The position numbers and the translations under genes were made by a program. 57,586 nt of DNA from Clostridia bacterium. GTDB taxonomy: Bacteria; Bacillota; Clostridia; TANB77; CAG-508. Position 1 is the stretch's first letter. The number at the start of each line of letters is the position of its first letter. Positions 22,109-56,733 of the stretch are shown here, piece after piece. The notes beneath the pieces were generated by a model. The model was not told where the DNA came from, ran no database searches, and worked only from the letters and a program-made list of their open reading frames with translations. The stretch spans positions 1-57,586 of the forward strand of contig JAFTFU010000142.1 in assembly GCA_017458285.1 (NCBI GenBank). The letters are read 5' to 3'.

Positions 22109-22158
22109 AACATTTTGCCTCAGTAGCACACTTTTTCTGCTCACTGATACAAAATGTT
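22109..22158 (+). repeat. dispersed 51-bp palindrome, copy A
   Basis: AACATTTT opens and AAAATGTT closes the element; inside are CAGT...ACTG and GCA...TGC arms around the conserved TTTTTCTGC core. It lies 97 bases before the ribosomal operon promoter. Four further copies are at 39.7, 45.1 (reversed), 55.0 and 56.7 kb. Confidence 0.75.
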
Positions 22159-22254
22159 ATTTTTGAAATTATAACATACTATATTAGTTTAAAATAAAAA
22201 ATGTCTACGATAAAGAAAATTATAAAAATGGGTGAAAAATATAGTTGAAAGGTA

Positions 22255-22283
22255 TTGACATAAGTTGGAAAAAATAGTATAAT
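22255..22283 (+). promoter_or_regulatory. consensus sigma-A promoter of the ribosomal protein operon
   Basis: TTGACA (22255-22260), a 17-base spacer and TATAAT (22278-22283): a perfect consensus promoter driving the S10-spc-alpha cluster. Confidence 0.92.
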
Positions 22284-22289
22284 ATTCAC

Positions 22290-22600
22290 GTATGAAATTT
22301 TAGCGTTGAAGCTGAATGTGGCTACGTCCTTACGGAAGTAAGAACGGAGGGAACTTCAGTGGAGTATGTCTTGGCAAAGACCAGGCGGTAAGTTAACTTA
22401 GAATATTCGCAAAAAACTGCGGATAAATTGCGCAAAATAAAAAAAGAGTTTTATAATTCAAAAATTAATTTTGCGACAACAAACAAAAAGCACTTATCCC
22501 ACATCATACAATTGGGATTTTTATATTGGGAAAACACAAAACACCAGGGTGCGTTCTAACTTGCCAGCTAAAGTAATTTATAAAAAGAAAGAGGAGGGAA
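22290..22600 (+). ncRNA. structured leader of the S10 operon
   Basis: The transcript has about 310 untranslated bases before rpsJ. TGAAG (near 22305) pairs with CTTCA (near 22355) and encloses CTTAC-GGAA-GTAAG; further paired stretches follow. S10 operons of Gram-negative and Gram-positive bacteria often have leaders bound by L4 that control transcription or translation; a similar autogenous role here is inference. The last part carries AGAGGAGGG, the rpsJ ribosome site. Confidence 0.6.
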
Positions 22601-22607
22601 AATTACA

Positions 22608-22931
22608 ATGGCAAAAGCAGTTGCAACAAGTGAAAAAATAAGAATAAGACTAAAGGCTTATGACAATGTTATTTTAGACCAGTCTGCTGTACAAATAGTA
22701 GAAACAGCTAAAAAGACAGGAGCAAAGGTATCAGGTCCTATTCCATTACCAACACAAAAAGAGATAGTAACAATTTTACGTTCTCCACACAAACACAAAG
22801 ATTCAAGAGAACAATTCGAAATGAGAACACATAAAAGAGTTATAGACATCTTATATCCAACACAAAAAACAGTAGACAACTTAATGAAGCTTGAACTACC
22901 AGCAGGTGTAGATATAGAAATTAAGTTATAA
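22608..22931 (+). CDS. rpsJ: 30S ribosomal protein S10
   Basis: 107 residues, a few more than usual because of the N-terminal [10 protein letters not shown]10 lies in the 30S head and, as NusE, in antitermination complexes. Conserved segments are [25 protein letters not shown], and the [15 protein letters not shown] loop. The ribosome site GAGGAGGG precedes the ATG. First gene of the cluster, separated from rplC by an unusually long spacer. Confidence 0.97.
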
Positions 22932-23100
22932 GTTAATGAAAAACAAGCAACGCGAAGTTTTGAATGTTACTTATAACTTATGCAATCGAACAAAGTGAGA
23001 TTGTAAACCTTAAAAATAAGTTAATAAAAAACAAGCAACGCGAAGTTTTGAGTGTTACTTATAACTTATGCAATCAAACAAAGAAAGATTGCAATCAACA
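22929..23100 (+). repeat. tandem duplicated structured spacer between rpsJ and rplC
   Basis: A unit starting AAGTTAATRAAAAACAAGC at 22930 recurs at 23018 (period 88 bases, about 72-75 bases nearly identical, through GCAATC..GATTG). Each unit can form two hairpins: ATAAGTT...AACTTAT and CAATC...GATTG. Downstream, GTTAGCGAAAACTAAC forms a third. The short frame inside the repeat has no ribosome site and is not considered coding. Confidence 0.8.
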
Positions 23101-23177
23101 CAAACATAAAAAGTTAGCGAAAACTAACCAAGCTGATACAAAGTGTCAGCCAATAGTATAGTAGGAGGAAAAAGAAC

Positions 23178-23813
23178 ATGAAAAAAGGAATCATTGGAAG
23201 AAAATTAGGAATGACACAAATTTTTGATGAAAACGGAACAGTTATTCCTGTAACAGTAGTAGAAGCTGGTCCATGTTTAGTTGCACAAGTAAAAACAAGT
23301 GAAACAGATGGATATCAAGCAATACAATTAGGGTTTGGAGAAGTAAAAGACAAACACATAAACAAACCAGAAAAAGGACATTTTGCAAAAAACAACTTAA
23401 CAGCAAAAAAACATTTAAGAGAATTTAGATTAGACTCAATCGACGGAATAAACGTTGGAGACGAAATAAAAGCAGATGTATTTGAAACTGGAGAAAAAGT
23501 AGATGTACAAGGAACATCAAAAGGAAAAGGATTCCAAGGTGTAATTAAAAGACATGGACAATCAAGAGGACCAATGGGACATGGATCAATGTATCATAGA
23601 AGACCAGGTTCAATGGGACCATGTGCAACACCAGGAAGAGTATTCAAAGGTAAAAAATTACCAGGACATATGGGAAGAGTTACAGTTACTGTACAAAACT
23701 TAGATATAGTAAAAGTAGACATGGACAAAAATGTGTTATTAATAAAAGGTAGCGTACCAGGAGTTAAAGGTGCAATACTAAAAATAAAATCAGCTGTAAG
23801 AGCTAGCAAATAA
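23178..23813 (+). CDS. rplC: 50S ribosomal protein L3
   Basis: 211 residues. L3 starts assembly of the 50S subunit and reaches the peptidyl transferase centre. Family segments are [20 protein letters not shown], the central [16 protein letters not shown] and the [17 protein letters not shown] loop with [30 protein letters not shown] precedes the ATG. It is 19 bases from rplD. Confidence 0.97.
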
Positions 23814-23831
23814 TAGAAAGGAGAAAAGAAA

Positions 23832-39735: not shown

Positions 39736-39786
39736 AACATTTTTTACCAGTGACGCATTTTTTCTGCTCTACTTAGACAAAATGTT
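39736..39786 (+). repeat. dispersed 51-bp palindrome, copy B
   Basis: AACATTTT...AAAATGTT outer arms, CAGT and GCA inner arms and the TTTTTTCTGCTCTACTTAGAC core. It lies 60 bases before the promoter of the acetyltransferase cassette, and its downstream flank resembles that of copy E. Confidence 0.8.
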
Positions 39787-41066: not shown

Positions 41067-41277
41067 TAGTGACCAAATAACAATTTTGAAAGAACAATTG
41101 AAATATGAACGAAATGAATTAAAAAGATTAAAAAAGGCAAGAACAACTAATAATACTTTGAGGGGACCTTATGGAAGGTCAGAAAGATCACCTAAGATAC
41201 ATAAGATAGTAAATTTAAATACAAAAATAAAAGAACTAGAAAAGAAAATAAATAAAGATTCAATGGAGCGATATTAA
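41032..41277 (+). CDS. small charged coiled-coil protein between two acetyltransferases
   Basis: 81 residues. Two helical coiled-coil stretches (about 20-42: KEQLKYERNELKRLKKA, and 60-78: NTKIKELEKKI) flank a basic Gly/Ser/Arg-rich loop (LRGPYGRSERSPK). It overlaps the gene before by 35 bases and the gene after by one, so translation is probably coupled. No ribosome site is evident. The overlap at both ends supports a real gene; no family is recognised. Confidence 0.5.
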   Translation: MDIIQIGKEIPDSDQITILKEQLKYERNELKRLKKARTTNNTLRGPYGRSERSPKIHKIVNLNTKIKELEKKINKDSMERY

Positions 41278-42260: not shown

Positions 42261-42273
42261 GGAAATTAGCATA

Positions 42274-42302
42274 TTGTAAAATAGGAAAAAAAGTGATATT
42301 AT
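42274..42302 (+). promoter_or_regulatory. sigma-A promoter of aspS
   Basis: TTGTAA (42274-42279), a 17-base spacer and TATTAT (42297-42302). The leader of about 30 bases is too short for a T-box. Confidence 0.65.
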
Positions 42303-42336
42303 AGTAACATGTATAAAAAATAGGAGGAAAAACCAA

Positions 42337-44100
42337 ATGTATAGAACAAACAATTTAGGGGAATTAAACATAGAAAATATAGGACAAAAAGTAGAATTAT
42401 CAGGTTGGGTACAAAAAATAAGAAACTTAGGAGCTATGATATTTATAGATTTAAGAGATGAAAAAGGAATAACACAAATTGTAATAAATACAGAAGAACT
42501 ACAAAATAAAGCAAAAGAAATCACAACAGAAAGTTGTGTTCACATATGTGGAGAAGTTGTTGAAAGAGCAAGCAAAAATCCAAATTTAAAGACAGGAGAA
42601 ATAGAAGTTGTAGCAGAACAAATAGATGTTTTAGGAAAATGCAAATCAACACTTCCGTTTGAAATAAACACAGATCAAGAAGTAAGAGAAGACTTGAGAT
42701 TAGAATATAGATTCTTAGACTTAAGAAACGAAAAACTACATAATAACATATTATTGCGTTCAAAAATACTAAAAACATTAAGAGATAGAATGGACGAATT
42801 AGGATTTCCTGAAATTCAAACACCAATACTTGCAAATTCATCACCAGAGGGAGCAAGAGACTATTTAGTACCAAGTAGATTACATCCAGGAGAATTTTAT
42901 GCACTTCCACAAGCACCACAACAATTTAAACAATTGCTAATGGTATCTGGATTTAACAAATACTTTCAAATAGCACCGTGCTTTAGAGATGAAGATCCAC
43001 GTGCAGATAGAGCACCAGGAGAATTTTATCAATTAGATTACGAGATGAGTTTTGCAACACAAGAAGATGTATTTAAAATAATGGAAGATGTAGTACCATA
43101 TACTTTTGAAAAATTCAGTAGTTGGACAGTAGAAAAAGGACCATTTATAAGAATTCCATATAAAGAAGCAATGGAAAAATACGGAATAGACAAACCAGAT
43201 TTAAGAAATCCATTAATAATACAAGATGTTACATCAAGCTTTGAAAATACAGAGTTTAATGCATTCAAAGGAAAAATAATAAAAGCCATAGTTGTACCAG
43301 ATGGAGCAAAACAAGGAAGAAAGTTTTTCGATGGCATGGTAGATTTTGCAGTTCAAGAATGTGGTGCAAAAGGGCTAGCATGGACAAAATTTGAAGAAAC
43401 AGGAGAAATAGTGGGAGGAATTGCAAAATTTGTAACAGAAGAAGTTCAAGAAAGCTTAAAAAATACAGTTGGTGTAAATAACGGAGATTCAATATTCTTT
43501 ATAGCAGATGATGAATTAGAAAAAGCACAAAAACTAGCAGGATTAGTAAGAATTGAATTAGGAAAAAGATTAGATTTAATAGAAAAAAATATATACAAAT
43601 TCTGTTTTATAGTTAATTTTCCAATGTATGAAATGGCAGAAGACGAAAATGGAAATCCAAAAATAGACTTTTCTCATAACCCATTTTCAATGCCACAAGG
43701 AGGATTAGAAGCATTAGAAAATAAAGACCCATTGGATATTTTAGCATACCAATATGATTTAGTATGTAATGGATATGAAATGGCATCAGGAGCTGTAAGA
43801 AATCATAATCCAGAAATAATGGTAAAAGCATTCGAAATTGCAGGATATAGTGAAGAAGATGTAAAATCAAGATTTGGAGCGCTATACAATGCATTCCAAT
43901 ATGGAACACCACCACATGCTGGGGCTGCTCCTGGAGTTGATAGAATGGTAATGTTAATTGCTGATTCTCAAAATATCAGAGAAGTTATAGCATTCCCTAA
44001 AAATAAAAAAGCAAGAGATTTATTAATGAATGCTCCTTCAAAAGTTACAGAGCAACAATTAAAAGATGTACATATAAAAATTGAAAAAGAAGAAAAATAA
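42337..44100 (+). CDS. aspS: aspartyl-tRNA synthetase
   Basis: 587 residues, bacterial type. An OB-fold anticodon-binding domain (about 1-105), class II motif 1 ([19 protein letters not shown]), motif 2 ([20 protein letters not shown]), a GAD insertion (about 290-400), and motif 3 ([15 protein letters not shown]) are all present. It charges tRNA-Asp, or tRNA-Asn too if non-discriminating. AGGAGGAAAAACC precedes the ATG. dapF follows after 40 bases. Confidence 0.96.
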
Positions 44101-44140
44101 AATATATTATCGTGAATATATTTTATACGAGGAGGTTAGA

Positions 44141-44983
44141 ATGATTAAGTTTACAAAAATGCAAGGAATAGGAAATGATTATGTATATATTAATGCCATT
44201 GAACAAAAAATTGAAGATCCATCAAAATTAGCTAATAAAATAAGTGATAGACATTTTGGGATTGGTTCAGACGGATTAATTCTTATTCGTGAGAGCGATG
44301 TAGCAGATTTTAGAATGCAAATGTTTAATAGTGATGGTTCAGAAGCAGAAATGTGCGGAAATGGTATTAGATGTGTAGGAAAGTTTGTATACGATAAGGG
44401 ATTAACCAATAAAGAAACTCTAAAAATTGAAACTTTAGCAGGAATAAAAATATTAAAGTTAAATATTAAAGACGGTAAAGTTGATACAGTAAGAGTAGAT
44501 ATGGGAGAACCAATTTTAATTCCAAATGAAATTCCTGTTATATCAAATGAAGATATAGTTAAAGATTTACCAATAGACATATATGATAAAAGTTTTAAAT
44601 TTACATGTGTTTCTATGGGAAATCCACATGCAGTCACATTTATAAAAGAAAATGTACAAGAGTATGATGTTAGTAAATATGGAAAGGAAATAGAGGTTAA
44701 TAAAGCATTTCCTAAAAAAACTAATGTTGAATTTATAAATGTGATAGATAAAAAGAATATAAAAATGAGAGTATGGGAAAGAGGTGCAGGAGAAACATTA
44801 GCTTGTGGAACAGGAGCTTGCGCATCAACTGTTGCAGCAATTTTAAACGGATACACTGATAATACTGTTAATGTTGAATTACGTGGAGGGATTCTTCAAA
44901 TAGAATGGAATAAAGAAGATAATCACGTTTATATGACAGGTTCTGCAACTAATGTGTTTGAAGGATATATTGAAGAAATATAG
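44141..44983 (+). CDS. dapF: diaminopimelate epimerase
   Basis: 280 residues. DapF converts LL- to meso-diaminopimelate for lysine and peptidoglycan. The two catalytic Cys are in EMCGNGIRC (about 73) and [10 protein letters not shown] (about 221). [13 protein letters not shown] starts the family. ATG at 44141 with GAGGAGGT at seven bases is preferred to a longer frame overlapping aspS. Confidence 0.95.
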
Positions 44984-45102
44984 GTTAGATATTTTAAATT
45001 TCTGTAAATAGTAGCCTACTTGTAGCTAAATTGAGACAAAATGTTGTTTTGAAAAAATATATAGAAAAATATACGGTACAATATAATGTTATTTTTAAAT
45101 TT

Positions 45103-45154
45103 AACATTTTGTCTAAGTAGAGCAGAAAAAGTGCGTCTCTGACAAAAAAATGTT
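45103..45154 (-). repeat. dispersed 51-bp palindrome, copy C (reversed)
   Basis: The complement strand gives AACATTTTTTTGTC, the CAGAGACGCAC arm, the TTTTTCTGCTCTACTTAGAC core and AAAATGTT. It lies in the 378-base gap between the converging dapF and ytaF genes. A partial copy (TTGAGACAAAATGTTG) is at about 45031-45046. The remaining gap sequence is low in complexity with repeated TCAAAA-like words. Confidence 0.75.
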
Positions 45155-45189
45155 AAAATAAAAAATACAACATATATAATATAAGTCAA

Positions 45190-45221
45190 AAAGCTCTCCG
45201 CGCAAAGCAGAGAGTTTTTTT
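45190..45221. terminator. bidirectional terminator between dapF and ytaF
   Basis: CTCTC-cgcgcaaagca-GAGAG followed by TTTTTTT on the plus strand and by CTTTTTGACTT on the minus strand. It can serve both converging genes. Confidence 0.75.
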
Positions 45222-45361
45222 GAAAGGTTAATAAATTCCAGGCATGATGCTCACGGTAAAAAATCGAAAATCAAAAATTTCAAATTTTGTAGTTTCAAAG
45301 CTCAAAAGATTCAAAAGTCCAAAATCCAAAGGACCATAGATTCTAAAACTCTAAAAAAATT

Positions 45362-45913
45362 TTACAAAATTCTAAAAATCCCCATAGAAAAAAGCACAAA
45401 TCCAGCGATAATATTCCAAACAGAATCTGGAATATTACAAACTTTTCTAAAACGCGACCCAAGAAATATGCCAAAAGTTAAAAACAAAAGTTGAAAAAAA
45501 GCAACTAAAAAAGGAAAAACAAAAATATTAAGACCAATAATGCTACTTCCTATACTAATCCCAATCGAATCAAAAGACAAAGCTAAGGCAAGGAAAAAAG
45601 CCTCTTTCGAATCAATATTATTTGAATTATCCAAATCGCAAAATTCAGTATTTTTTTTCAAAGCTCCAAAAATAATTACTAACCCCATAAAACATAAAAT
45701 AAAACAGCCAATAAAATTTCTAATAAAGTCAGGTAAAAAAACAGATAAAAAATTTCCTATAAACATAGACAAAAAAGTAACAATAGAGGAAAATGCAAAT
45801 AAAATTAATTTCGCCCAAAAGGAAATTTTGGTACTATTTAAACCATATGTAACACCAATTCCAAAAGAATCAATACTTACACAAAAAGGTAATAAAAAAT
45901 AAGTATAAAACAT
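45362..45913 (-). CDS. ytaF: YtaF-like sporulation membrane protein (MntP superfamily)
   Basis: 183 residues with six membrane segments in two repeats. The paired motifs VSIDSFGIGVTYGL (about 11-24) and LALSFDSIGISIGSS (about 110-124) match YtaF/MntP proteins. YtaF is associated with spore formers; MntP exports manganese. No Mn riboswitch was recognised upstream. GAGGTGG precedes the ATG. It is one of the few minus-strand genes right of 9.4 kb. Confidence 0.85.
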   Translation of the reverse strand: MFYTYFLLPFCVSIDSFGIGVTYGLNSTKISFWAKLILFAFSSIVTFLSMFIGNFLSVFLPDFIRNFIGCFILCFMGLVIIFGALKKNTEFCDLDNSNNIDSKEAFFLALALSFDSIGISIGSSIIGLNIFVFPFLVAFFQLLFLTFGIFLGSRFRKVCNIPDSVWNIIAGFVLFSMGIFRIL

Positions 45914-46034
45914 AAAACCACCTCTTATATAAATATGTAAACCAAATAAAAAAGTTCATAAAAATTGGACATGCGCATAAAATTAAATATAAGCAAAAGG
46001 GAGAAAATCCCGAAAAACAAAGGAGAGGATATAT

Positions 46035-48686
46035 ATGTGGTATGCAAAAGACATTAGAGAAGTCGAAAGAAATTTAAAAACAAACATAAGACAAGGTCTT
46101 AATGAAAAAGAAGCGGAAAAAAGAAAGGAGCAATTTGGAGAAAATAAATTAGCTGACAAGAAAAAAGAAAGTATAATAATAAAATTCTTAAAACAATTTA
46201 ATGACTTCATGATAATTATTTTAATAATAGCTTCAATAATATCAGCAATTGTAGCAAAGTTAGACGGCTCAGGAGATTATATAGACTCGATAATAATAAT
46301 TGCAATAGTTATATTTAATAGTATTATGGGACTAGTTCAAGAAGCAAAAGCAGAAAAATCATTAGAAGCATTAAAAAGCATGACAGCTCCAGTTTCAAAA
46401 GTAAAAAGAAATGGAAGAATTGTAGCAATAAAAGGAACAAATGTAGTCCCAGGAGATATAATCTGTTTAGAAGCAGGAAACTATGTGCCAGCAGATGCAA
46501 GGTTAATTTCATGTTCAAACTTAAAAGTAGAAGAATCAAGTTTAACAGGGGAAACAGTGCCAATATTAAAAGATGCCAATGCAATATTAAAAAAAGAAGT
46601 AGCAATTGGAGATACAATAAACATGGTATTTTCATCAACAATTGTTGTAAATGGTCATGGAGAAGCAATAGTTACTGAAACTGGAATGAATACAAAAGTT
46701 GGAAAAATAGCAAAAATGATGATAAACGACGAAGCCCCACAAACGCCAATACAAAAGAAGTTAGCAGAAGTTGGAAAAACTTTAGGAATTGGATGTTTAA
46801 TAATATGTGTGCTAATATTCATAATAGGACTATTTAAGAAAATATCACCAATTGAAATGTTTATGACATCAGTTGGACTTGCAGTAGCAGCAATTCCAGA
46901 AGGATTACCTGCAATAGTTACAATAATGTTATCAATAGGTGTTACAAAAATGGCCAAAAAGAACAGTATAATAAGAAAATTGCCAGCAGTTGAAACTTTA
47001 GGAAGTAGTAGTGTAATTTGTTCAGATAAAACTGGCACTTTAACTCAAAATAAAATGAAAGTAGTAGAGCTTGTAACAAATAGAGAAAATGCTACTGAAA
47101 AAGAACAAGAATTTTTACTAGAATTAGGTTCGATGTGCACAGATGCAAATATAGAAATTGAAAACGGAATAAAAGCAGCAACAGGAGAGCCAACAGAAAT
47201 TGCAATTGTAAATAAAGCATTAGAAAAAAATATTGATAAAGAAGGTTTATATCAAAAAATGGAAAGAATAAAAGACATTCCATTTGATTCAACTAGAAAA
47301 ATGATGTCAACAATACATAAAAATATGGGAATGTACAGAATTATCACTAAGGGAGCACCGGATGTAATAATTAGCAAATGCTCAAAAGTAAAAGACGGAA
47401 ACAACATAATAGAAATGAATGATGTGACAAAAAGAAAAATAGAATTATTAAACAACAAAATGGCAGATAAAGCTTTAAGAGTAATTGCAGTTGCATATAA
47501 AGAAGAAAAAAATATTCCAAACAAAATAGACACAAATACAATTGAAAATAACCTAATTTTCGTTGGATTAATTGGAATGGTTGATCCACCAAGAGAGGGA
47601 GTAAAAGAAGCAGTTGAAACATGTAGAAAAGCAGGAATTAAAACTGTAATGATAACAGGAGACCATATAGTTACAGCAAAAGCAATTGCAAAAGAATTAG
47701 GAATATTAAAAATGAATGATTTAGCAATTACAGGAAAAGAATTAGACAGTATAAGTGAAGAACAACTTTCCAAAAACATAATGAAATATTCAGTATTTGC
47801 AAGAGTTTCACCAGAACATAAAGTAAGAATCGTAAAAGCATTTAGAAAAACAGGAGCAGTAGTTGCAATGACAGGTGACGGTGTAAACGACGCACCAGCA
47901 CTAAAAAACGCAGACATTGGAATTGCAATGGGATTAAATGGTACAGATGTTGCCAAAAATGCAGCAGATATGGTACTAGCAGATGATAATTTTATAACAA
48001 TTGTAGAAGCCGTAAAAGAAGGAAGAACTATTTTTGATAACATAAAAAAAGCTATTCACTTTTTAATTGCAACAAATATAGGCGAAATTGTAACAATATT
48101 TATGGGGTTAGTTTTAGGCTTAAAATCACCATTACTTGCAATACAATTATTATGGATAAACCTAGTTACAGACTCGCTTCCAGCAATTGCGTTAGGCTTA
48201 GAAAAGCCAGATAAAGACATAATGAATAAAAAGCCACGAGATTCTAAAAAAGGAATATTTGCAGATGGACTATGGAACCAGATATTTGTAGAAGGAATTA
48301 TGTTAGGAATGCTAACACTAGTTGCATTTAGTTTAGGAAACAGTATGTTCGGATTAGAAGTTGGAAGAACAATGGCTTTTGTAAGTTTAGGAATGTTAGA
48401 ACTTATCCACAGCTTTAACATAAAAAGTGAAAAATCAATTTTTGAAAGCGGTTTTTTTGACAATAAATATTTAATTGGAGCTTTGATTTTAGGAACTATT
48501 ATGCAAGTTGCTGTTGTAGTAATTCCACAAGTAGCAGAAGTATTTAAATTAGTGCCATTAAATAAAATTCAATGGCTATATACTTTCTTGATTTCAATTT
48601 CTCCTTTAATAATTATGGAGGCACAAAAGAAATTAAATGAAATAAAATTTGGAAAAGTTGTATATAAAAAATTTGAAAAAATTTAA
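46035..48686 (+). CDS. P-type Ca2+-transporting ATPase
   Basis: 883 residues of the type II P-ATPase family. The N-terminal cation ATPase domain, the TGE loop in SSLTGETVPI (about 170), PEGLPA in helix M4 (Ca2+ site, about 286), the phosphorylated Asp in DKTGTLTQ (about 331), MITGDHI and TGDGVNDAPALKNADIG are all visible. The C-terminal helices carry LLWINLVTDSLPAIALG. It likely pumps calcium out of the cell. AAAGGAGAGGATATAT precedes the ATG. Confidence 0.93.
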   Translation: MWYAKDIREVERNLKTNIRQGLNEKEAEKRKEQFGENKLADKKKESIIIKFLKQFNDFMIIILIIASIISAIVAKLDGSGDYIDSIIIIAIVIFNSIMGLVQEAKAEKSLEALKSMTAPVSKVKRNGRIVAIKGTNVVPGDIICLEAGNYVPADARLISCSNLKVEESSLTGETVPILKDANAILKKEVAIGDTINMVFSSTIVVNGHGEAIVTETGMNTKVGKIAKMMINDEAPQTPIQKKLAEVGKTLGIGCLIICVLIFIIGLFKKISPIEMFMTSVGLAVAAIPEGLPAIVTIMLSIGVTKMAKKNSIIRKLPAVETLGSSSVICSDKTGTLTQNKMKVVELVTNRENATEKEQEFLLELGSMCTDANIEIENGIKAATGEPTEIAIVNKALEKNIDKEGLYQKMERIKDIPFDSTRKMMSTIHKNMGMYRIITKGAPDVIISKCSKVKDGNNIIEMNDVTKRKIELLNNKMADKALRVIAVAYKEEKNIPNKIDTNTIENNLIFVGLIGMVDPPREGVKEAVETCRKAGIKTVMITGDHIVTAKAIAKELGILKMNDLAITGKELDSISEEQLSKNIMKYSVFARVSPEHKVRIVKAFRKTGAVVAMTGDGVNDAPALKNADIGIAMGLNGTDVAKNAADMVLADDNFITIVEAVKEGRTIFDNIKKAIHFLIATNIGEIVTIFMGLVLGLKSPLLAIQLLWINLVTDSLPAIALGLEKPDKDIMNKKPRDSKKGIFADGLWNQIFVEGIMLGMLTLVAFSLGNSMFGLEVGRTMAFVSLGMLELIHSFNIKSEKSIFESGFFDNKYLIGALILGTIMQVAVVVIPQVAEVFKLVPLNKIQWLYTFLISISPLIIMEAQKKLNEIKFGKVVYKKFEKI

Positions 48687-48759
48687 ATAACTTTTAACTA
48701 AAAAGGTTAATTTAAAAAAGCAATTTCAAATGTATGTAAAAAAATTTCTTAAAATAGTA

Positions 48760-48788
48760 TTGTAAAATTATTCAAAAGAGTGTATTAT
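48760..48788 (+). promoter_or_regulatory. sigma-A promoter of the Yip1-like gene
   Basis: TTGTAA (48760-48765), a 17-base spacer and TATTAT (48783-48788). Confidence 0.65.
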
Positions 48789-48863
48789 ATAGATGTAAAT
48801 TTAGTGAGGAAAACTTTAAATATTTTTAACTACATTTGTGCCTCAAGAAAGGAAAGAGAAAAA

Positions 48864-49550
48864 ATGGAAGAAAATGAAAACAAAATTGAAGAAACTCAAG
48901 AAAATAAACAAGAAAGTGAATTTAAAAAGCAAACTGCAAATGTAATTAATGAAGCTAAAGAACAAATGAAAAATATAAACATTAAAGAAGAAGCAGAAAA
49001 AGGCAAGAATTTATTTTTAAAACTGTTTAAAGAACCGATAAAAACAATAAAAGAAATAGCACAAGATGAACAAAATAAAACGCAAAAAACAGCAATTATA
49101 CTAATAATTATATGGGTAGTAAGTGTACTTTTTAGACAAATAATTTTCTATGCAACATCAAAATACTACGATTTTGACTTTTTAGATACATTAAAAGTAA
49201 TTTTAAGTCCAGTGTTAGTAATTGCAGGAATGACAGTATCAATATATTTCTTAAATAAAAATTCCAAAAAATCTATTTCAAGAATTATAACTTCGGTTAC
49301 AATTGCAAAAATACCTACTATAGTATCATCTTTAGTTGTGTATTTAAATTATATTCACAGCAAAGTGTACAATTTAACAGACCCTATAAGAACATTTTTG
49401 TCAATTATCTCTATGGTAATTATGTACTTTACTGTTAAGTTCTTGTTTGAAGAAAATGATGATGAAACTGCTGTTAAACAATTTGTTAAAGTCGAAGCTA
49501 TTTATTATGTAATTGCTTTTATAATTAGTTTTTTTGGAATAACAATGTAA
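48864..49550 (+). CDS. Yip1-like multi-pass membrane protein
   Basis: 228 residues. A charged cytoplasmic N-terminus (about 1-80, Glu/Lys-rich) is followed by five membrane segments (about 84-228), a layout of Yip1-domain proteins. FKEPIKTIKEIAQDE before the first helix is reminiscent of that family. The function is unknown. AAAGGAAAGAGAAAA precedes the ATG; an upstream in-frame start at 48780 overlaps the promoter. A terminator follows. Confidence 0.65.
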   Translation: MEENENKIEETQENKQESEFKKQTANVINEAKEQMKNINIKEEAEKGKNLFLKLFKEPIKTIKEIAQDEQNKTQKTAIILIIIWVVSVLFRQIIFYATSKYYDFDFLDTLKVILSPVLVIAGMTVSIYFLNKNSKKSISRIITSVTIAKIPTIVSSLVVYLNYIHSKVYNLTDPIRTFLSIISMVIMYFTVKFLFEENDDETAVKQFVKVEAIYYVIAFIISFFGITM

Positions 49551-49569
49551 AATTTTATTTTGTAAAATT

Positions 49570-49619
49570 AAACTGAGATAAAATGTGTGAGTAAAAAAAA
49601 TATTTTGTCTCAGTTTTTT
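49570..49619 (+). terminator. intrinsic terminator
   Basis: AACTGAGA-t-AAAAT pairs with ATTTT-g-TCTCAGTT, then TTTTTT. Confidence 0.8.
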
Positions 49620-49738
49620 GACTTTTTGTTTTTACAGCGAATAAGTACAAAAAATATTAAAATTTGCTATTTTAGATAAAACGTGCTATAATAAGCCTTG
49701 TGAAAATTAAAGCACATAGAAAGAAGGAAAAAGAAAAA

Positions 49739-51580
49739 ATGAGTATACTAAACTTTAAAATACCAAAATTTAAAATGCCAAAATTTAAAATGAACGGACT
49801 ATCAGAAATAGAAGAACTAAAATTTAGCACAGAAAATAGTGAAAAAACAAAGTCAAATAAAAGGGATAAAAACTATGAAAATCCAAATTACAAAACAATA
49901 AAAGAAGTATTTATAAAATCAACAGAAAAATACAAAGACAAGAGCTTCATATTAGAAAAGCCTGACCATAAAACACCATATAAAGAAATAACATATGGAG
50001 AATTCAAAGAAGATGTAATAGGTTTAGGAACAGGAATGCTAAAACTATTAGGGTTAAAAGACGAAAGAGTTGTAATAATAGGAGAAACAACTTATAATTG
50101 GTATGTATCTTACATGGCAATGCTTTGTGGAGTTGGAATTGCAGTTCCAGTAGACAAAGAGCTACCAGCAAACGAAATTGAAAATGTAGTAAAAAGATCA
50201 AGAGCAAAAGCAGTTATTTATTCTCCAAAGAAAAAAGAAGTAATAGAAAAGGTAAAAGAAAATTTATCTGAAGTAGAATATTTTATAGAAATGAAAAGCG
50301 AAGAACCTATTAATGGAAAAGATGTAGGAATAAATTATTTAATTGAAGCAGGAAAAAGACTAGCAAAAAATGGAGATACAACATTAATGGATATTGAAAT
50401 AGACCCAGAAGAATTTAAGGTTTTAATTTTTACATCAGGAACAACAGCAAGATCAAAAGGTGTTATGATATGTAACAGAAATTTAGCTGAAAATATAAAT
50501 GCATGTCATTCTTATGTAAAAATAACAGAAGAAGATAGACTATTTTCAGTTTTACCATTACATCATACTTATGAATCAACAATAGGATTTTTATATCCTA
50601 TGTCAGCAGGTTCTTCAGTAGCTATATGTGAGGGGCTTAAATATATTGCATCAAACTTAAAAGAATCACAACCAACAGCGATACTTACAGTACCATTATT
50701 AGTAGAAAGTTTGTATAAGAAAATTACTGACAACATAAAGAAAAGTAAAAAAGAAACACTTGTAAATTCAATGATACGTATAACAAATGCACTAAAAGCA
50801 GTTAATGTTGATATCAAAAAAGAAGTATTTAAAGAAATATATGAAAATCTTGGAGGAAAGTTAAGAATAGTAGTTTCAGCAGCAGCACCAATTGATCCGA
50901 AAGTTGGAAAATGGTTAGAAGATATAGGAATTATTTTCTTACAAGGATATGGATTAACAGAAACAGCACCAATAGCTGCATTAACACCAGATTTTGATAC
51001 AAGAGTAGGTTCAGCCGGAAAAGCAGTAGTTTGCGCAGAAATAAAAATTAAAAATCCAAACGAAAAAGGTGAGGGAGAAGTTCTAATAAAAAGTAGAACA
51101 ACAATGCTTGGATATTATGAAGATGAAGAAGCAACAAATGAAGTTATGGAAGATGGATGGTTCAATTCAGGAGATGTAGGTTACTTAGACAATGACGGAT
51201 TCTTGTTTATAACAGGAAGGTCAAAAAATGTAATAGTAACACAAAATGGAAAGAACATATATCCAGAAGAAATTGAAATAATGTTAGGCAAAATTCCTGA
51301 AATAAGAGAATGTATAGTTTATGGAAAAGAAGAAGAAGGAAAGAAAGAACTAACTGTATCTGCAAGAGTAATTCCAAATTATGATGAAATCGAGAAAAAA
51401 TATGGAAAAATTCCAGATAAAGAAGAAATTCATAAAATAATTTGGGAAGAAATCAAAAAAGTAAATAAAAAATTAACATCATATAAATGCATCAAATTCT
51501 TAGAAATAAAAGAAGGAGAATTTGAAAAAACAACAACAATGAAAGTAAAAAGAGCAGTTGAATTGAAAAAGAAAGTATAA
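49739..51580 (+). CDS. long-chain acyl-CoA synthetase (AMP-forming)
   Basis: 613 residues. The enzyme activates a fatty acid with ATP and CoA. P-loop-like motif TSGTTARSKG (about 230-239; Ala replaces the usual Gly), LPLHHTYES, the YGLTETAP motif (about 405), GWFNSGDVGYLD and the K in TTTMKVKR near the end are present. The N-terminus has an unusual repeated basic-hydrophobic string, KIPKFKMPKFKM, perhaps a membrane-binding helix. ATG at 49739 follows AGAAGGAAAAAG. Confidence 0.9.
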   Translation: MSILNFKIPKFKMPKFKMNGLSEIEELKFSTENSEKTKSNKRDKNYENPNYKTIKEVFIKSTEKYKDKSFILEKPDHKTPYKEITYGEFKEDVIGLGTGMLKLLGLKDERVVIIGETTYNWYVSYMAMLCGVGIAVPVDKELPANEIENVVKRSRAKAVIYSPKKKEVIEKVKENLSEVEYFIEMKSEEPINGKDVGINYLIEAGKRLAKNGDTTLMDIEIDPEEFKVLIFTSGTTARSKGVMICNRNLAENINACHSYVKITEEDRLFSVLPLHHTYESTIGFLYPMSAGSSVAICEGLKYIASNLKESQPTAILTVPLLVESLYKKITDNIKKSKKETLVNSMIRITNALKAVNVDIKKEVFKEIYENLGGKLRIVVSAAAPIDPKVGKWLEDIGIIFLQGYGLTETAPIAALTPDFDTRVGSAGKAVVCAEIKIKNPNEKGEGEVLIKSRTTMLGYYEDEEATNEVMEDGWFNSGDVGYLDNDGFLFITGRSKNVIVTQNGKNIYPEEIEIMLGKIPEIRECIVYGKEEEGKKELTVSARVIPNYDEIEKKYGKIPDKEEIHKIIWEEIKKVNKKLTSYKCIKFLEIKEGEFEKTTTMKVKRAVELKKKV

Positions 51581-51755
51581 ATATTAATACAAAGTATAAA
51601 AAGCATAAGTACTGAAACAGAGTATTAAAAAAATAGTTGAATGTAAAAAATAAATATTTATAATAAAACTAAAAATCTATTGAAAAAAGTATAAAATTGA
51701 TATAAAATAATCACAATAAAATATCTAATATTTTTATATTTGAAAGGGTAAAGAA

Positions 51756-52040
51756 ATGGATGACATGTTTGTACCTGCAAATCAAGTATTAACAATTGAT
51801 TTGCATGAAATGACTGTAGCAGAAGCAAAATATACACTTGAAAAAGAATTAAATACTGCACCATGTGATATAAAAATTGTTGAAGTAATACATGGATTTC
51901 ATAAAGGTCAAGAAATAATGAAAATGGTAAGAACAGAGTTTAGACATCCAAGAATTAAAAGAAAATATCTAACAATGAACAAAGGTATTACAAGATTCGA
52001 ACTTACAGATATAAAAGAGTTAGATATAAGTAAAAAGTGA
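51756..52040 (+). CDS. Smr-domain protein
   Basis: 94 residues. LTIDLHEMTVAEAKYTLEKE and VIHGFHKGQEIMKMVR give the LDLH and HG-x-G-like motifs of the Smr domain, found at the C-terminus of MutS2, where it is a nuclease. Stand-alone Smr proteins bind or cut nucleic acid. The middle motif here has HKGQ instead of the usual GxGxG. GAAAGGGTAAAGAA precedes the ATG. rubrerythrin follows after 15 bases. Confidence 0.82.
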   Translation: MDDMFVPANQVLTIDLHEMTVAEAKYTLEKELNTAPCDIKIVEVIHGFHKGQEIMKMVRTEFRHPRIKRKYLTMNKGITRFELTDIKELDISKK

Positions 52041-52055
52041 AAGGAGTATTTACTT

Positions 52056-52595
52056 ATGGAATTAAAAGGAAGTAAAACAGAAAGAAATTTAATGGAGGCA
52101 TTTGCAGGAGAGTCTCAAGCAAGAAATAAATATACTTACTTTGCAAGCAAAGCAAAAAAGGATGGATTTGAACAAATTGCAGCTATATTTCAAGAAACAG
52201 CAGATAATGAAAAAGAACATGCTAAAATTTGGTACAAACTATTAAATGGTGGAGAAATAAGTTCAACAGCTGAAAACTTAAGAGCTGCAGCTGAGGGAGA
52301 AAACTACGAATGGACAGATATGTATGACAGATTTGCAAAAGAAGCAAGAGAAGAAGGATTTACTCAAATTGCATACTTATTTGAAGCAGTTGGAAAAATA
52401 GAAAAAGAACATGAAGAAAGATATAAAAAACTATTAGAAAATGTTGAAGGTGGTTTAGTATTTTCAAAAGACGGTGATAAAATTTGGAAATGCAGAAACT
52501 GTGGACATATTGTAATCGGAAAAGAAGCTCCAGAAATGTGCCCAGTTTGCCAACATCCAAAAGCTTTCTTCGAAGTTAAAGCCGAAAACTATTAA
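52056..52595 (+). CDS. rbr: rubrerythrin
   Basis: 179 residues. A ferritin-like diiron domain (about 1-135) with [25 protein letters not shown], and [12 protein letters not shown] provides the Glu and His ligands. The C-terminal rubredoxin domain has CRNCG and CPVCQHP. Rubrerythrin reduces peroxide and protects anaerobes from oxygen. AAAGGAG precedes the ATG. Confidence 0.95.
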
Positions 52596-52621
52596 TAAAA
52601 AAGGAATTTATTTCCAAAAAG

Positions 52622-52660
52622 AAAAAACGTGAAGAACATAAAAAACTTCACGTTTTTTTG
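52622..52660. terminator. bidirectional terminator
   Basis: AAAAAACGTGAAG pairs with CTTCACGTTTTTTT. T-runs on both strands serve rubrerythrin and the converging XRE gene. Confidence 0.85.
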
Positions 52661-52675
52661 TGTATATTTTATTTA

Positions 52676-53071
52676 CTATGAATTTTCCATATATTTAATT
52701 AATTGAATAATAATATCTTTATTTTTATCAGAAAGTTTATCAAAATCATTTGCAATAGTTTCTGTAAATTTATTTACGCTATTATATAACACATCATCTG
52801 TAAGCTGAGCAGGAGTGATATTAAGAGCGTTACAAATATCAATAATGGTTATTATTGAAGGAACACTATTTCCAATTTCTAGCTGATACAAATGGCTAGA
52901 TGTAATATGGCTTTTTTCAGCTAATTGTTCTCTTGTAAGTTTTAAATTTTTTCTATATTTATTAATATTATTACCAATCATTTTGGCAATTTCTTTTTTT
53001 CTATTATTTTCAGAAATCTGAATCTCTTGTTCTTCTTTAGATAGTTGATTCCTTTTCATTTTGCCAGGCAT
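52676..53071 (-). CDS. XRE-family transcriptional regulator
   Basis: 131 residues. A basic N-terminal arm (1-30) is followed by a Cro/C1-type helix-turn-helix (about 32-90): NINKYRKNLKLTREQLAEKS, SHLYQLEIGNSVPSI, and ICNALNITPAQL. The C-terminal 35 residues are helical and may dimerise. GGATGTGAT precedes the ATG. It diverges from the LPXTG gene and may control it or a nearby unit (inference). Confidence 0.85.
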   Translation of the reverse strand: MPGKMKRNQLSKEEQEIQISENNRKKEIAKMIGNNINKYRKNLKLTREQLAEKSHITSSHLYQLEIGNSVPSIITIIDICNALNITPAQLTDDVLYNSVNKFTETIANDFDKLSDKNKDIIIQLIKYMENS

Positions 53072-53188
53072 TTTATCACATCCTTTATAAATAATATCCT
53101 TTTAATTATATAATTTAATATAAATATTTAAAAATATATACGTATATAAACTGTAGTAATAAATTATATATAAAAATATAAAAACCTA

Positions 53189-53217
53189 TTTACTTTTTTT
53201 AACAAAAATGATATAGT
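53189..53217 (+). promoter_or_regulatory. probable sigma-A promoter of the LPXTG gene
   Basis: TTTACT (53189-53194), a 17-base spacer and TATAGT (53212-53217). Confidence 0.55.
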
Positions 53218-53242
53218 ATGAAAAGTAAAGGAGGGAAAAATA

Positions 53243-53345
53243 AGAAATACAAAAAAAGTTATATAAATATAACGAGAGGAAAATAAAAGAAATACAAAAA
53301 AAGTTATATAAATATAACGAGAGGAAAATAAAAGAAATACAAAGG
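53243..53345 (+). repeat. 45-bp tandem repeats in the LPXTG gene leader
   Basis: A 45-base unit beginning AGAAATACAA, containing GTTATATAAATATAAC and CGAGAGGAAAATAAA, is present twice and a third partial time (AGAAATACAAAGGG). Each unit holds a short palindrome and a ribosome-site-like GAGAGG. It lies in the 5' leader between promoter and start. Confidence 0.85.
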
Positions 53346-53358
53346 GAGGAAATTTAAA

Positions 53359-54864
53359 TTGAAAGTAAAAAACTTAATAATAATTTTTAGTATTATAGTA
53401 ATGTTGGTATTATTACCAAATATAGTAAACGCAGCAAACGAAATAACGTCAACTGAAAAGACAGCAACATCCACAGGTGCAAATGTTCAATGGACTTATA
53501 CTCTAAATGAAAGTGATCAAATTGAAAATCTAAAATGCAAAAACTTAAGTGATATTTCAGGAGAATTGACAATTCCAGAAAAAATAGATAATCATACAGT
53601 TATAAAGATAGGTAGTTCTGCATTTAAAGACTGTAAAGGATTAACAGGAATTTCTTTTCCAAACACAATTAAAGAAATAGGAAATTATGCCTTTTCAGGA
53701 TGTGTTGGAATAAAATCATTAGAAATTCCTAGTAGTGTGGTTACGATAGGAATAGAGGCATTTAAAAATTGTTCAGGACTAAAAAATATTAAATTAAACA
53801 GTGGACTTGTTTCAATAAATAGATATAGTTTTTATGGATGTTCAGGTATATCTGAAATAACAATTCCTGATAGCGTAACATTTATAGGAAGTTATGCATT
53901 TTATAGCTGTTCAGGACTAAAAAATGTTAAATTATCTGAAAATTTAACTAAAATAAGCGCTGAAACTTTCTCGCGTTGTTCGGGATTAACCAGTATAGTT
54001 ATTCCTGAGAATGTTACAACTATTGAAGATTGTGCTTTTTATGAATGTACAAATTTAAATAAAATTAAAATAGGAGAGAATATATCTTCAATAGGTGTAA
54101 ATGTTTTTTCTTACGATAAGAAACTTACTATTTATGGAAAAAAAGACTCTGTAGCAGAAAATTATGCAAAAACAAATAATATTCCATTTGACTTAATCGA
54201 AAATTGGAACAAAGCAGAGCAAGGAAATGATATAACAGCACCAACAGTAACTTCTATAAGAGTTGTAGAACCAACTTCTGGAACATACACTACAAACAAA
54301 AGCATTTCAATAAGAGTATATTTTAGTGAAAATGTAACAGGAGAAACAGTGCCTACATTAAAAATAAAATTTGGAACTGGCTCAGAAAAAAGTATTACTA
54401 AGGCAACAATAAAAGATAATTATGTTGAATATACCTATAAAATAGAGTCAAATGATAATGGGCAATTAGCAGTTTCATCATTATCAGGCGGAACTATAAA
54501 AGATGCATCAGGAAATAATGCGGTAATTACTTGTCCTTTAATATCAGGTAACAGTATAATTGCAAATAATGCTGTGGCTTCAAGTGAAGGACAAAAATCT
54601 AATGAAAATAATAGTGCTGCAAATAGTTCTAATGATTCCCAAAAGGATAACTCAGCAAATAATTCAAGTAATGGAAATTCTGCTAATAACGTAAATGATT
54701 CAAGTAATGCTAATAATAACAATGCAAACAATACAGCTGATGAAACAATTTCAAAAATAAAATTACCTAATACAGGAAAAGCTGGAATTGGAATGATTGC
54801 ATTATTAATAATTATTGCTACAAGCGTATCATATTCTAAATATAAAAAACTAAAAGGGATATAA
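53359..54864 (+). CDS. LPXTG-anchored leucine-rich-repeat (BspA-type) surface protein
   Basis: 501 residues. A signal peptide (about 1-25, ending NIVNA) is followed by about seven LRR_5 repeats of 23 residues (about 60-270: AFKDCKGLTGISFPNTIKEI and variants). A beta-sandwich-like domain (about 290-405: SGTYTTNKSISIRVYFSENV) and a Ser/Asn-rich linker follow. The sorting signal is LPNTG, a hydrophobic helix and a KYKKLKG tail. The protein should be attached to the wall by a sortase such as that at 21.3 kb, and may bind host or microbial surfaces. TTG start behind GGGAGG. Confidence 0.92.
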   Translation: MKVKNLIIIFSIIVMLVLLPNIVNAANEITSTEKTATSTGANVQWTYTLNESDQIENLKCKNLSDISGELTIPEKIDNHTVIKIGSSAFKDCKGLTGISFPNTIKEIGNYAFSGCVGIKSLEIPSSVVTIGIEAFKNCSGLKNIKLNSGLVSINRYSFYGCSGISEITIPDSVTFIGSYAFYSCSGLKNVKLSENLTKISAETFSRCSGLTSIVIPENVTTIEDCAFYECTNLNKIKIGENISSIGVNVFSYDKKLTIYGKKDSVAENYAKTNNIPFDLIENWNKAEQGNDITAPTVTSIRVVEPTSGTYTTNKSISIRVYFSENVTGETVPTLKIKFGTGSEKSITKATIKDNYVEYTYKIESNDNGQLAVSSLSGGTIKDASGNNAVITCPLISGNSIIANNAVASSEGQKSNENNSAANSSNDSQKDNSANNSSNGNSANNVNDSSNANNNNANNTADETISKIKLPNTGKAGIGMIALLIIIATSVSYSKYKKLKGI

Positions 54865-54941
54865 ATATACCAGATAAAACATAAAAATGAAAAATAAAAA
54901 AATACGAAAATTAGTGCAAAATAGGGAAAAACTAAAGCGTA

Positions 54942-55003
54942 AAAAAACACATTTTCTATCAGTTAATTTATAGAAAAATAGCTGAGAGGGAAGGTGTTTT
55001 TTT
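54942..55003 (+). terminator. terminator-like element, composite repeat copy D
   Basis: AAAACACATTTTCTAT and a complementary ATAGAAAA, then the conserved AGCTGAGAGGGAAG and GTGTTTTTTT. The string AAAAATAGYTRAGAGGGAAR and the GTGTTTTTT end recur at 56634-56674, so this part and palindrome D form one composite. Confidence 0.65.
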
Positions 55004-55010
55004 AAAATCA

Positions 55011-55061
55011 AACATTTTTTGTAAGTAGCACAATTTTTCTGCTCTACTGAGACAAAATGTT
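55011..55061 (+). repeat. dispersed 51-bp palindrome, copy D
   Basis: AACATTTT...AAAATGTT arms and the core TTTTTCTGCTCTACTGAGAC, identical in the core to copy E. It lies 8 bases after the shared terminator-like element. Confidence 0.82.
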
Positions 55062-55122
55062 TAATTAAAAAAGAATACTATTAACGTTGGTTAATACAAA
55101 ATAGTTAATAATTCAATATTCC

Positions 55123-55232
55123 AGAAAGTCGTTAGCAAAATGTGCAGAAATCACAAGAAAGTCATTGACAAAATGTGTTAGAAACGAAAAAAGTCATAAA
55201 AAAAATGTACATATTTTATAAAAGTCGTTTGA
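55123..55232 (+). repeat. phased direct repeats (iteron-like) before the AAA ATPase gene
   Basis: AGAAAGTCGTT and a following AAAATGTG recur with variation at 55123, 55156, 55188 and about 55219, spaced 33, 32 and 31 bases (three helical turns). The fourth unit overlaps the -35 box. The layout resembles binding sites for a protein at the promoter. Confidence 0.72.
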
Positions 55233-55257
55233 TTTTTGTGAAAACTAGTGGTATACT
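55229..55257 (+). promoter_or_regulatory. sigma-A promoter of the AAA/DUF4143 gene
   Basis: TTGATT (55229-55234), a 17-base spacer ending in AGTGG and TATACT (55252-55257). The -35 box lies in the last phased repeat. Confidence 0.65.
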
Positions 55258-55290
55258 ATATATAAATTCAAATGTTAGGAGTTAAGGTAT

Positions 55291-56610
55291 ATGTATAGAC
55301 AAAAAATGGAAGAATTAAAAAAATGGAAAGAATCAAGCCATAGGAAACCGTTAATAATTAGAGGTGCAAGACAGGTTGGAAAAACATGGCTAATGAAAGA
55401 ATTTGGAAGAAATTTTTATGAAAAAATTGCATACATAAATTTTGATGATAATACAAGAATGAATAAGTTATTTGAAGAAGATTTTGATTTAGAAAGAATT
55501 ATACAAGGTCTAAAAATAGAATCGGGAGTGAACATTGAACCAGAAAATACATTAATAATTTTAGATGAAATTCAAGAAACGCCTAAAGCACTAAAAGCAC
55601 TAAAATACTTTTGCGAAAACGCAAGAGAGTATCACGTGGTATCAGCTGGTTCTTTATTAGGAGTTGCAATGCATAGTGGAACGTCATTTCCTGTTGGAAA
55701 AGTGGATTTTTTAGATTTAACACCGTTGAGTTTTTATGAATTTTTAGAAGCGATAGGTGAAAAAGAGTTATTAAAATTATTAAAAAATAATGATTTTAAC
55801 ATGATTGAGGTGTTTAGCACAAAATTAAAAGAATTTCTAAAACTTTATTACTATATAGGAGGAATGCCAGAAGCTGTTAATTCGTATGTAGAGAACAAAA
55901 ACTTATTAGAAGTTAGAGATATCCAAAAAAAATTATTAGCAGCATATGAACAAGATTTTTCAAAACATGCACCTAATAACATAGTTCCAAGAATAAGGCA
56001 ATTATGGAACAATATTCCTACTCAACTAGCCAAAGAAAATAAAAAATTCATTTATGGATTAGTTAGGCAAGGAGCAAGAGCGAGGGAATATGAACTAGCT
56101 TTATCTTGGCTCATAGATTGTGGACTTATATATCAAGTAAACAGAGTTAATACATCAAAAATTCCTTTATCAGCATATCAAGATTTTAATGCGTTTAAAT
56201 TATATTTATTAGATGTAGGATTATTATCTGCATTGTCTGGAATAGATGATAAAACTCTTTTAGAAGGAAATGATATTTTTGAAGAATTTAAAGGAAGTTT
56301 AACAGAGCAATATGTTTTGTGTCAATTAAAACAGTGTACTAATTTAGAAGTTTTTTATTGGTCATCTGATACTGGAACTTCAGAAGTTGATTTTATAACA
56401 CAGATTGGCAGAAACAACATTCCGATAGAAGTAAAGGCAAGTGAAAATTTGCAAGCTAAAAGTTTAAAAACGTTTGTACAAAAATATCAAACAAAAATAA
56501 ATGTAAGAACTTCTATGAGTTCGTACAGAAAAGAAGATTGGGTTATTAATATACCATTATATAATATTGGAAATATAGAAAAAATAAATAATACACTAAT
56601 AAATATTTAA
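55291..56610 (+). CDS. AAA-14 / DUF4143 ATPase
   Basis: 439 residues. AAA-14 domain: Walker A RGARQVGKTWL (about 24-34), Walker B TLIILDEIQETPKAL (about 88-102), and VSAGSLLGVA with LDLTPLSFYEFL. The C-terminal DUF4143 domain (about 195-400) ends with the nuclease-like WSSDTGTSEVDF and IPIEVKAS motifs (E-x-D and E-x-K). Such proteins are abundant in anaerobes; the function is unresolved, though DNA-related or toxin-like roles have been suggested. TTAGGAGTT precedes the ATG. Composite repeats flank it on both sides. Confidence 0.88.
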   Translation: MYRQKMEELKKWKESSHRKPLIIRGARQVGKTWLMKEFGRNFYEKIAYINFDDNTRMNKLFEEDFDLERIIQGLKIESGVNIEPENTLIILDEIQETPKALKALKYFCENAREYHVVSAGSLLGVAMHSGTSFPVGKVDFLDLTPLSFYEFLEAIGEKELLKLLKNNDFNMIEVFSTKLKEFLKLYYYIGGMPEAVNSYVENKNLLEVRDIQKKLLAAYEQDFSKHAPNNIVPRIRQLWNNIPTQLAKENKKFIYGLVRQGARAREYELALSWLIDCGLIYQVNRVNTSKIPLSAYQDFNAFKLYLLDVGLLSALSGIDDKTLLEGNDIFEEFKGSLTEQYVLCQLKQCTNLEVFYWSSDTGTSEVDFITQIGRNNIPIEVKASENLQAKSLKTFVQKYQTKINVRTSMSSYRKEDWVINIPLYNIGNIEKINNTLINI

Positions 56611-56633
56611 AACACTAAATAATAAAAATAAAA

Positions 56634-56674
56634 AAACACAGTTTGAAAAATAGTTAAGAGGGAAAGTGTTTTTT
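56634..56674 (+). terminator. terminator-like element, composite repeat copy E
   Basis: AAACAC...GTGTTTTTT with the inner GAAAAATAGTTAAGAGGGAA, near identical to the element at 54942-55003, directly before palindrome E. Confidence 0.6.
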
Positions 56675-56682
56675 GAAAATTA

Positions 56683-56733
56683 AACATTTTTTACCAGTGG
56701 CGCAATTTTTCTGCTCTACTGAGACAAAATGTT
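56683..56733 (+). repeat. dispersed 51-bp palindrome, copy E
   Basis: AACATTTT, CAGTGGCGCA, TTTTTCTGC, CTACTG and AAAATGTT; the inner arms pair CAGT/ACTG and GCA/TGC. It lies 50 bases before the next promoter and shares its downstream flank with copy B. Confidence 0.82.

Follow-up and report, generated by a model that had tools for sequence, protein, structure and literature searches.

A family of hairpin repeats in a gut Clostridia genome

Five palindromes of about 51 bp lie between the genes of contig JAFTFU010000142.1 (GenBank assembly GCA_017458285.1, a Clostridia bacterium of the CAG-508 lineage), and the question raised by this stretch, analysed over its whole length of 57,586 nucleotides and called here the window, is to which class of DNA elements they belong. 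The initial annotation proposed a small RNA-like boundary element, a family of repetitive extragenic palindromic sequences (REPs) or miniature inverted-repeat transposable elements (MITEs), or a protein-binding site. All five palindromes were found where first reported, and all five are located between open reading frames (ORFs). They belong to a far larger family of imperfect palindromes of ~50 bp, nearly all intergenic, which feature constant ends, exchangeable cores, a conserved stem mismatch in units with the main core type, denominated A, and mosaic direct tandem arrays with a pitch of ~64 bp. We somewhat favour the view that this is a species-private, non-autonomous, interspersed hairpin repeat of an uncultured gut Clostridia species, similar to REPs and to bacterial interspersed mosaic elements (BIMEs). 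The earlier interpretation is on the whole partly supported.

A covariance model built from 15 copies gave 148 listed strand matches in the host assembly (2,359,945 bases in 217 contigs, stated contamination 6.39%). With strands merged, and with nhmmer matches from the window and 44 fetched stretches of the genome added, 137 distinct units were counted at 61 places of the 2.36-Mb genome. Copy counts are lower bounds, as scoring covered the best 150 of the 3235 candidates from a first pass. Nhmmer was the only source of four of the 137 units, and these were excluded from the 133-row statistics on A cores given below. The family resembles REPs in being a high-copy, extragenic, imperfect palindrome; 6 of the 61 clusters overlap an ORF of at least 80 amino acids (ORFs being called by length only). 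Unit-bearing stretches have a G+C content of 26-31%. Genes identified beside units include rpsJ, der, plsY, RNase HII, yvcK and miaB, and neighbours of this kind mark the places as chromosomal. Twelve contig ends (hand count) fall within 60 bp of a unit, which indicates that arrays break the host assembly.

Structure of units and arrays

The typical A unit is 50 bp long and reads AACATTTTGT-NN-CAGTRACGCAC-TTTTT-CTGCTCTCTG-NN-ACAAAATGTT. Arms (AACATTTTGT) and AT-rich spacers are common to three kinds of core. The B core, CAATGTAGCC-N6-GGCTACATTG, was found at 19 places, in some of them only partially; other units have an AT-rich core, such as CAGTTTA...TAAACTG. The three types may coexist in a single array (for example at L052, L057, L073 and L049), and arrays are mosaic, because units sharing arms and spacers differ in their cores.

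Units are single at 26 places, and are found in groups of two, three, four and five at 10, 11, 12 and 2 places, respectively, so that 35 of the 61 places are multiple. Neighbouring units have the same orientation in all 76 pairs. The pitch is 62-66 bp in 70 pairs (63-65 bp in 62), 81-82 bp in four, and 58 and 61 bp in the remaining two. Array spacers are AT-rich, measure 12-16 bases in 71 of 76 cases, and recur in sequence, the most frequent being GTTTTTTTATTTT. Identity is 0.905 inside arrays and 0.785 between arrays; this higher identity within arrays suggests that they grew locally. Many arrays are bordered by what appear, by eye, to be decayed halves of AT-type units.

The two arms of A units do not match throughout. 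In 133 aligned copies (T-G counted as unpaired) the letters match in 82-98% of cases at arm positions 2-8 and in 95-96% at positions 14-15, and in only 4% at position 11; values at positions 1, 9, 10, 12 and 13 are intermediate (60, 47, 71, 35 and 60%). The dinucleotides at positions 11-12 are identical between arms in 4 of 133 copies (shuffled-arm mean ~36, minimum 22), and position 11 is a pyrimidine on one arm and a purine on the other in 122 (shuffled mean 67, largest 90); as the A copies are related by descent, figures from shuffles are not to be read as probabilities. The pyrimidine is carried over 60 clusters by the left arm only (YR) in 34, by the right arm only (RY) in 16, and is mixed or otherwise arranged in 10. 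Both orders occur, which argues that the mismatched state is kept through change. Judged from these alignments, pairing at arm position 11 is avoided in A units, in either direction, and these units thus carry a stem mismatch of the E. coli REP type. The 25/25 mismatch at position 11 in a smaller alignment of 25 rows is not independent evidence, as rows were picked and oriented by hand.

Predicted folds

All eight predicted folds of single-stranded DNA, obtained from six units, consist of an outer and an inner stem separated by an internal loop. Predicted energies range from -7.6 to -11.5 kcal/mol for A units, and are -11.7 for an AT-core unit, and -17.1 and -18.8 for B units. None of 200 shuffles folded as well in seven of the folds, and 1 of 200 did in the eighth.

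A and B units differ at the pair 15-38: of 25 rows picked by hand, 19 have G-C and 6 have A-T there, and in no row is the pair broken. Cells with a double change are 8 in the joint A and B set, as against 2.7 in shuffled sets, a value reached by 1 of 500 shuffles. The switch of pair 15-38 is probably a single event seen in many copies.

Position relative to genes

At 37 places units lie between co-directional genes, at 6 between convergent and at 5 between divergent genes, while 13 edge places were left unclassed; these counts depend on a crude, length-based ORF caller. Co-directional places are T-sense in 13 and T-antisense in 24 cases. Arrays lean to the latter (4 versus 15; two-sided binomial 0.019, one among several comparisons tried), and singles are evenly split (9 versus 9).

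Units might be thought to act as transcribed RNA hairpins, stabilising or ending messengers at gene ends and within operons. At 18 of the 37 co-directional places a stop codon lies no more than 50 bp upstream, the predicted RNA folds are stable, and in 64 of 76 array spacers at least five consecutive T are found on the T-rich strand within nine bases after the unit (27 spacers carry a G followed by T6-8). Such a role is disfavoured because the orientation is mixed, to which the five divergent gaps add, and we regard it as distinctly unlikely. Intrinsic terminators have a fixed orientation and a GC-rich stem, whereas the stem base is here A-T rich, common as the T-run is. Rfam gave no match above threshold for the window units, and for one array the best score was 12.9 bits, against a gathering threshold of 53.5. 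The small RNA-like boundary element first proposed is not favoured either, in view of the mixed orientation and of the lack of Rfam matches above threshold. The lack of a U-run, given earlier as a reason not to see ordinary terminators, holds for four window copies; the 22109 copy is followed by ATTTTT, and T-runs are common in arrays. The promoters reported downstream of four copies turned out to be uninformative, since 139 promoter-like sites were counted in 38000-57586 against a shuffle mean of 121 (the 22109 copy lies outside the scanned part).

The main rival, unlikely in its turn though less so than an RNA role, is a duplex binding site for a chromosome-structuring or regulatory protein, with the GTCTCAG arm and the RYCAG arm as half-sites, and a spacing of about six helical turns resulting in phased binding. 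The arms of A units differ regularly and in free order, 62 of 76 neighbouring pairs have a pitch of 63-65 bp, and co-directional, convergent and divergent gaps are occupied about at background rates (37:6:5 versus 162:28:31), all of which would fit a protein site. It would be odd, however, for a housekeeping site to be kept in no relative searched, and decayed units and identity in tandem resemble the turnover of repeats. Cores, moreover, differ wholesale yet remain self-complementary in those units that were folded; binding of a protein to duplex arms would not require it.

Possible mobility and candidate movers

For a REP-like element a mechanism can be envisaged in which one strand folds into a hairpin and the unit spreads from the folded form. 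A trans-acting enzyme would recognise the folded, mismatched stem, by analogy with HUH-type single-strand transposases, the nearest precedent. Slippage or unequal recombination would then make arrays longer or shorter, and units would decay with age. The pairing avoided at one stem position hints at a requirement of the recogniser.

Several results weigh against a mobile, REP-like element. Covariation exceeds that of shuffles neither within A (15 sequences) nor within B (15 of 19 places), and pairs with two-sided change in the joint set are 3, as against 2.0 in shuffled sets, which is not unusual (143 of 500). B units are less regular than A units at position 11, with pyrimidine and purine on opposite arms in 9 of 16, and identical dinucleotides in 2 of 16. 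None of the 137 copies carries a GTAG or CGTC tag within 10 bp outside either arm, and no GTAG, GGAG or CGTC tag was found in them. Target duplications of 2-10 bp are not in excess over shuffles at 53 places. In the host assembly no transposase is linked to the units, and no unit was found in the 5,976 bases surrounding the one gene for a Y1 transposase. Y1 genes are present in 27 of 29 genus genomes, with 0-5 matches each, irrespective of the repeat. Finally, spread is what we infer, and growth of old arrays coupled to rearrangement could mimic movement.

Some early claims are to be revised in this light. Pairing had been said to be kept while one side of the palindrome varies; changing bases fall mostly in the unpaired inner loop, two-sided changes are 0 in 5 rows and 0 in 15 rows, and the notion of kept pairing was dropped for variation within subfamilies, as no covariation is seen inside A or inside B. 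Compensatory changes, the lack of which had been said to speak against a functional family, are missing within the A subfamily, and some are found between A and B.

The single Y1 gene found in the host (L167, on contig C51) resembles those of REP-associated tyrosine transposases (RAYTs), and scores 68.9 bits in NCBIfam, below the cut-off of 80. It is flanked by a different repeat, TTTTGGTAGGTGTCCCCAAAA (near 508, 1077 and 2012 of L167), which within two mismatches occurs nine times in the host genome and is missing in 12 relatives. Because relatives lacking the hairpin repeat have Y1 genes, these do not track it; on this ground, and because of the different flanking repeat, the host Y1 gene was rejected as mover. 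A cognate RAYT flanked by units was thus not found, and the gene could have been lost at assembly breaks located at arrays. The mover may have been lost, or may lie inside an array gap of the assembly. Variants of the Y1-flanking repeat (TTTTGGAAGGTGTCCCTAAAA) are also found in the window at 1974-1994 and 8189-8209. The self-complementary 12-mer CCTGACGTCAGG occurs at 1938-1949, a short way from the first of these, and at 6932-6943 (0 in 100 shuffles).

Alternatively, the family could consist of MITEs in the classical sense, mobilised by a DDE transposase with terminal repeats like their own. Ends are constant, interiors variable and copies dispersed between genes, as in MITEs. Tandem arrays of regular pitch and an internal mismatch that is conserved would be unexpected, however, target duplications are not above shuffles, and no larger element with these ends was found, though no search was aimed at DDE families; the possibility is improbable. 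Orphan CT arms were inspected for a parent element with the same ends, and none was found in the genome, which is split in 217 contigs. One candidate, on contig C66, was discarded, as its arms, 2.4 kb apart, enclose a PGA_cap ORF and an ORF with no Pfam match. Of the joint REP/MITE proposal the dispersed REP-like family stands, and the classical MITE, for want of target duplications, is unsupported.

Least probable of all is that the units are a decoupled descendant of the RAYT-associated repeats of the genus. The REP TTGGACATTTTGTCCA is found in 24 of 204 genus genomes, the host not being among them, and its copies flank in opposite orientations the Y1 genes of the relatives G005, G015 and G039. 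Its ACATTTTGTC tract matches the arm of the hairpin unit, and in G015 the arm of an inverted doublet, ACATTTTGTCCAAT, is the B arm ACATTTTGTCTCAAT minus one base. About ten common bases in AT-rich DNA may be due to chance, however, the units lack the GGGGAC blocks, and no intermediate was seen. Inverted GGGGACGTTTCTTTTTGGACATTTTGTCC-like repeats flank the Y1 genes of some relatives (L194, L198 and L041).

As tags, a linked RAYT and target duplications are all lacking, the units are best described as REP-like in their working, and not as REPs by membership. They could alternatively exemplify a tagless class of repeats, in which a constant, mismatched pair of arms and an AT spacer accompany a core acting as an exchangeable cassette. 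Recognition of the folded strand would fall to an enzyme that is not part of the RAYT/REP pairs known so far, and that would need the flaw in either direction. We consider this doubtful. The REP-like interpretation would imply that such a life style exists in a gut Clostridia species whose repeats lack both a tag and a linked transposase, and have expanded privately, fresh layers of copies lying beside decayed ones.

Occurrence in related genomes

Of 210 genus genomes searched with the covariance model, the host alone has a match at an E value of 1e-4. In this search 28 candidates per genome were scored with stricter filters, so that a relative with weakly matching or few copies could have been overlooked. 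Borderline matches (1-2 each, E 0.01-0.09) in three relatives were on inspection judged to be different. A general pattern of the arms had 109 strand matches in the host, versus 0 with the reversed control. Among 28 other genus genomes two gave 1-2 matches, apparently unrelated, and none of 390 other genomes of the class gave any (the reversed control had single matches in five other genomes). One exact pattern found no match in a collection of named genomes, which may omit the host or near records. Among the literature matches listed, no published description of the unit sequence was recognised.

A phage or plasmid origin was rejected. Two exact patterns had no match in viral_contigs, and none was found in phages; the lone 26-base plasmid match, in Melissococcus, was taken as fortuitous. 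Analogous families were sought in parts of the genomes of three relatives (150, 65 and 54 kb), and yielded G-rich repeats like those seen beside Y1 genes, as well as others that appear to be coding sequence.

The operon gap separating der and plsY measures 321 bp in the host, and contains half a B unit and four A units. The gap was measurable in 21 of the 23 relatives searched, and is at most 31 bp in 13 (in four of these the der match is flagged as having internal stops, and in three the value is negative) and 62-189 bp in 8. A comparable array would therefore not fit in most of the measured relatives, and in some the gap is taken up by different sequence. In six of the eight longer gaps, G-rich motifs of the ggggac type were found; genome-wide repetition was checked for the motif of one relative (G019) only, and confirmed there. 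Nearly empty in most measured relatives and filled by other sequence in others, the gap provides a natural series for the gain and loss of repeats.

Copies in the window

The copies found in the window, decayed ones included, are listed in Table 1. The side of the palindrome described earlier as conserved, TTTTTCTGCTCTACTGAGACAAAATGTT, was found four times with 0-1 mismatch (0 in 100 dinucleotide shuffles), and is replaced in the 22109 copy by CTGCTCACTGATAC.

Table 1. Hairpin units and remnants identified in the window.
Coordinates	Strand	Description	Detection
22051..22095	+	degenerate unit, then array spacer GTTTTTTTATTTT at 22096-22108; 58 bp before 22109	
22109..22158	+	A-core unit upstream of rpsJ (22608), apparently the second in a decayed array of two	covariance-model match
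39736..39786	+	A-core unit, CT arm on right	covariance-model match
44995..45045	-	degenerate B-core unit with decayed second arm	
45103..45154	-	A-core unit between convergent genes	covariance-model match
49573..49613	-	remnant of two decayed units: right arm, AT spacer, left arm	
54949..54999	+	degenerate AT-core unit, one array pitch (63 bp) before 55011	
55011..55061	+	A-core unit, CT arm on right	covariance-model match
56683..56733	+	A-core unit, CT arm on right	covariance-model match

Similar segments containing GAGGGAARGTGTTT are located just upstream of units 55011 and 56683, at 54949-54999 and 56634-56671. Two other features of the window were identified. A tetrahydrofolate (THF) riboswitch aptamer is found at 6136-6230 on the minus strand (Rfam RF01831, 61 bits), and an AAA_14/DUF4143 protein encoded at 55291-56610 on the plus strand scores 617 bits against PDC-S01, a candidate-defence model of PADLOC.

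Comparison with known systems

Regular spacing and a palindromic part are reminiscent of clustered regularly interspaced short palindromic repeats (CRISPR). Judged on the spacers, units differ from these, as spacers are similar, AT-rich and mostly (71 of 76) of 12-16 bases, and are not unique, the commonest recurring in 9 of 76; copies, moreover, are dispersed at many places.

According to the passages of PMC3733652 drawn upon here, tagged REPs are predominantly found in Proteobacteria and carry either GTAG or CGTC, the GTAG type being thought to be moved by RAYTs; CGTC REPs likewise have no dedicated transposase. The same passages describe terminal repeats fitting GGGGWSAS at the genes of TIRYTs (tyrosine transposases associated with terminal inverted repeats). 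The repeats flanking the host Y1 gene, which contain GGGGACACC, fit this motif. They are separate from the hairpin units, the 50-bp consensus of which lacks it.

In Pseudomonas fluorescens SBW25 some of the hairpin-forming REP doublets (REPINs) occur in ordered tandem clusters, in which flanking sequence is included, as reported in the parts of PMC3116915 referred to here. The units are similar to REPINs in these respects, and differ in that their arms are not REP palindromes, 35 of 61 places are multi-unit and a RAYT is not adjacent.

Units also resemble the REPs and BIMEs of E. coli, in which, as far as the relevant portion of PMC8266576 goes, a conserved AA-GC mismatch is needed by TnpA_REP, and BIMEs are often in tandem. 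They differ from these in having no GTAG tag, an A-T rich stem, a single hairpin of ~50 bp each and no linked Y1 gene found, and share with them the dispersal of imperfect hairpins between genes, the conserved mismatch of the stem and the succession of copies in tandem.

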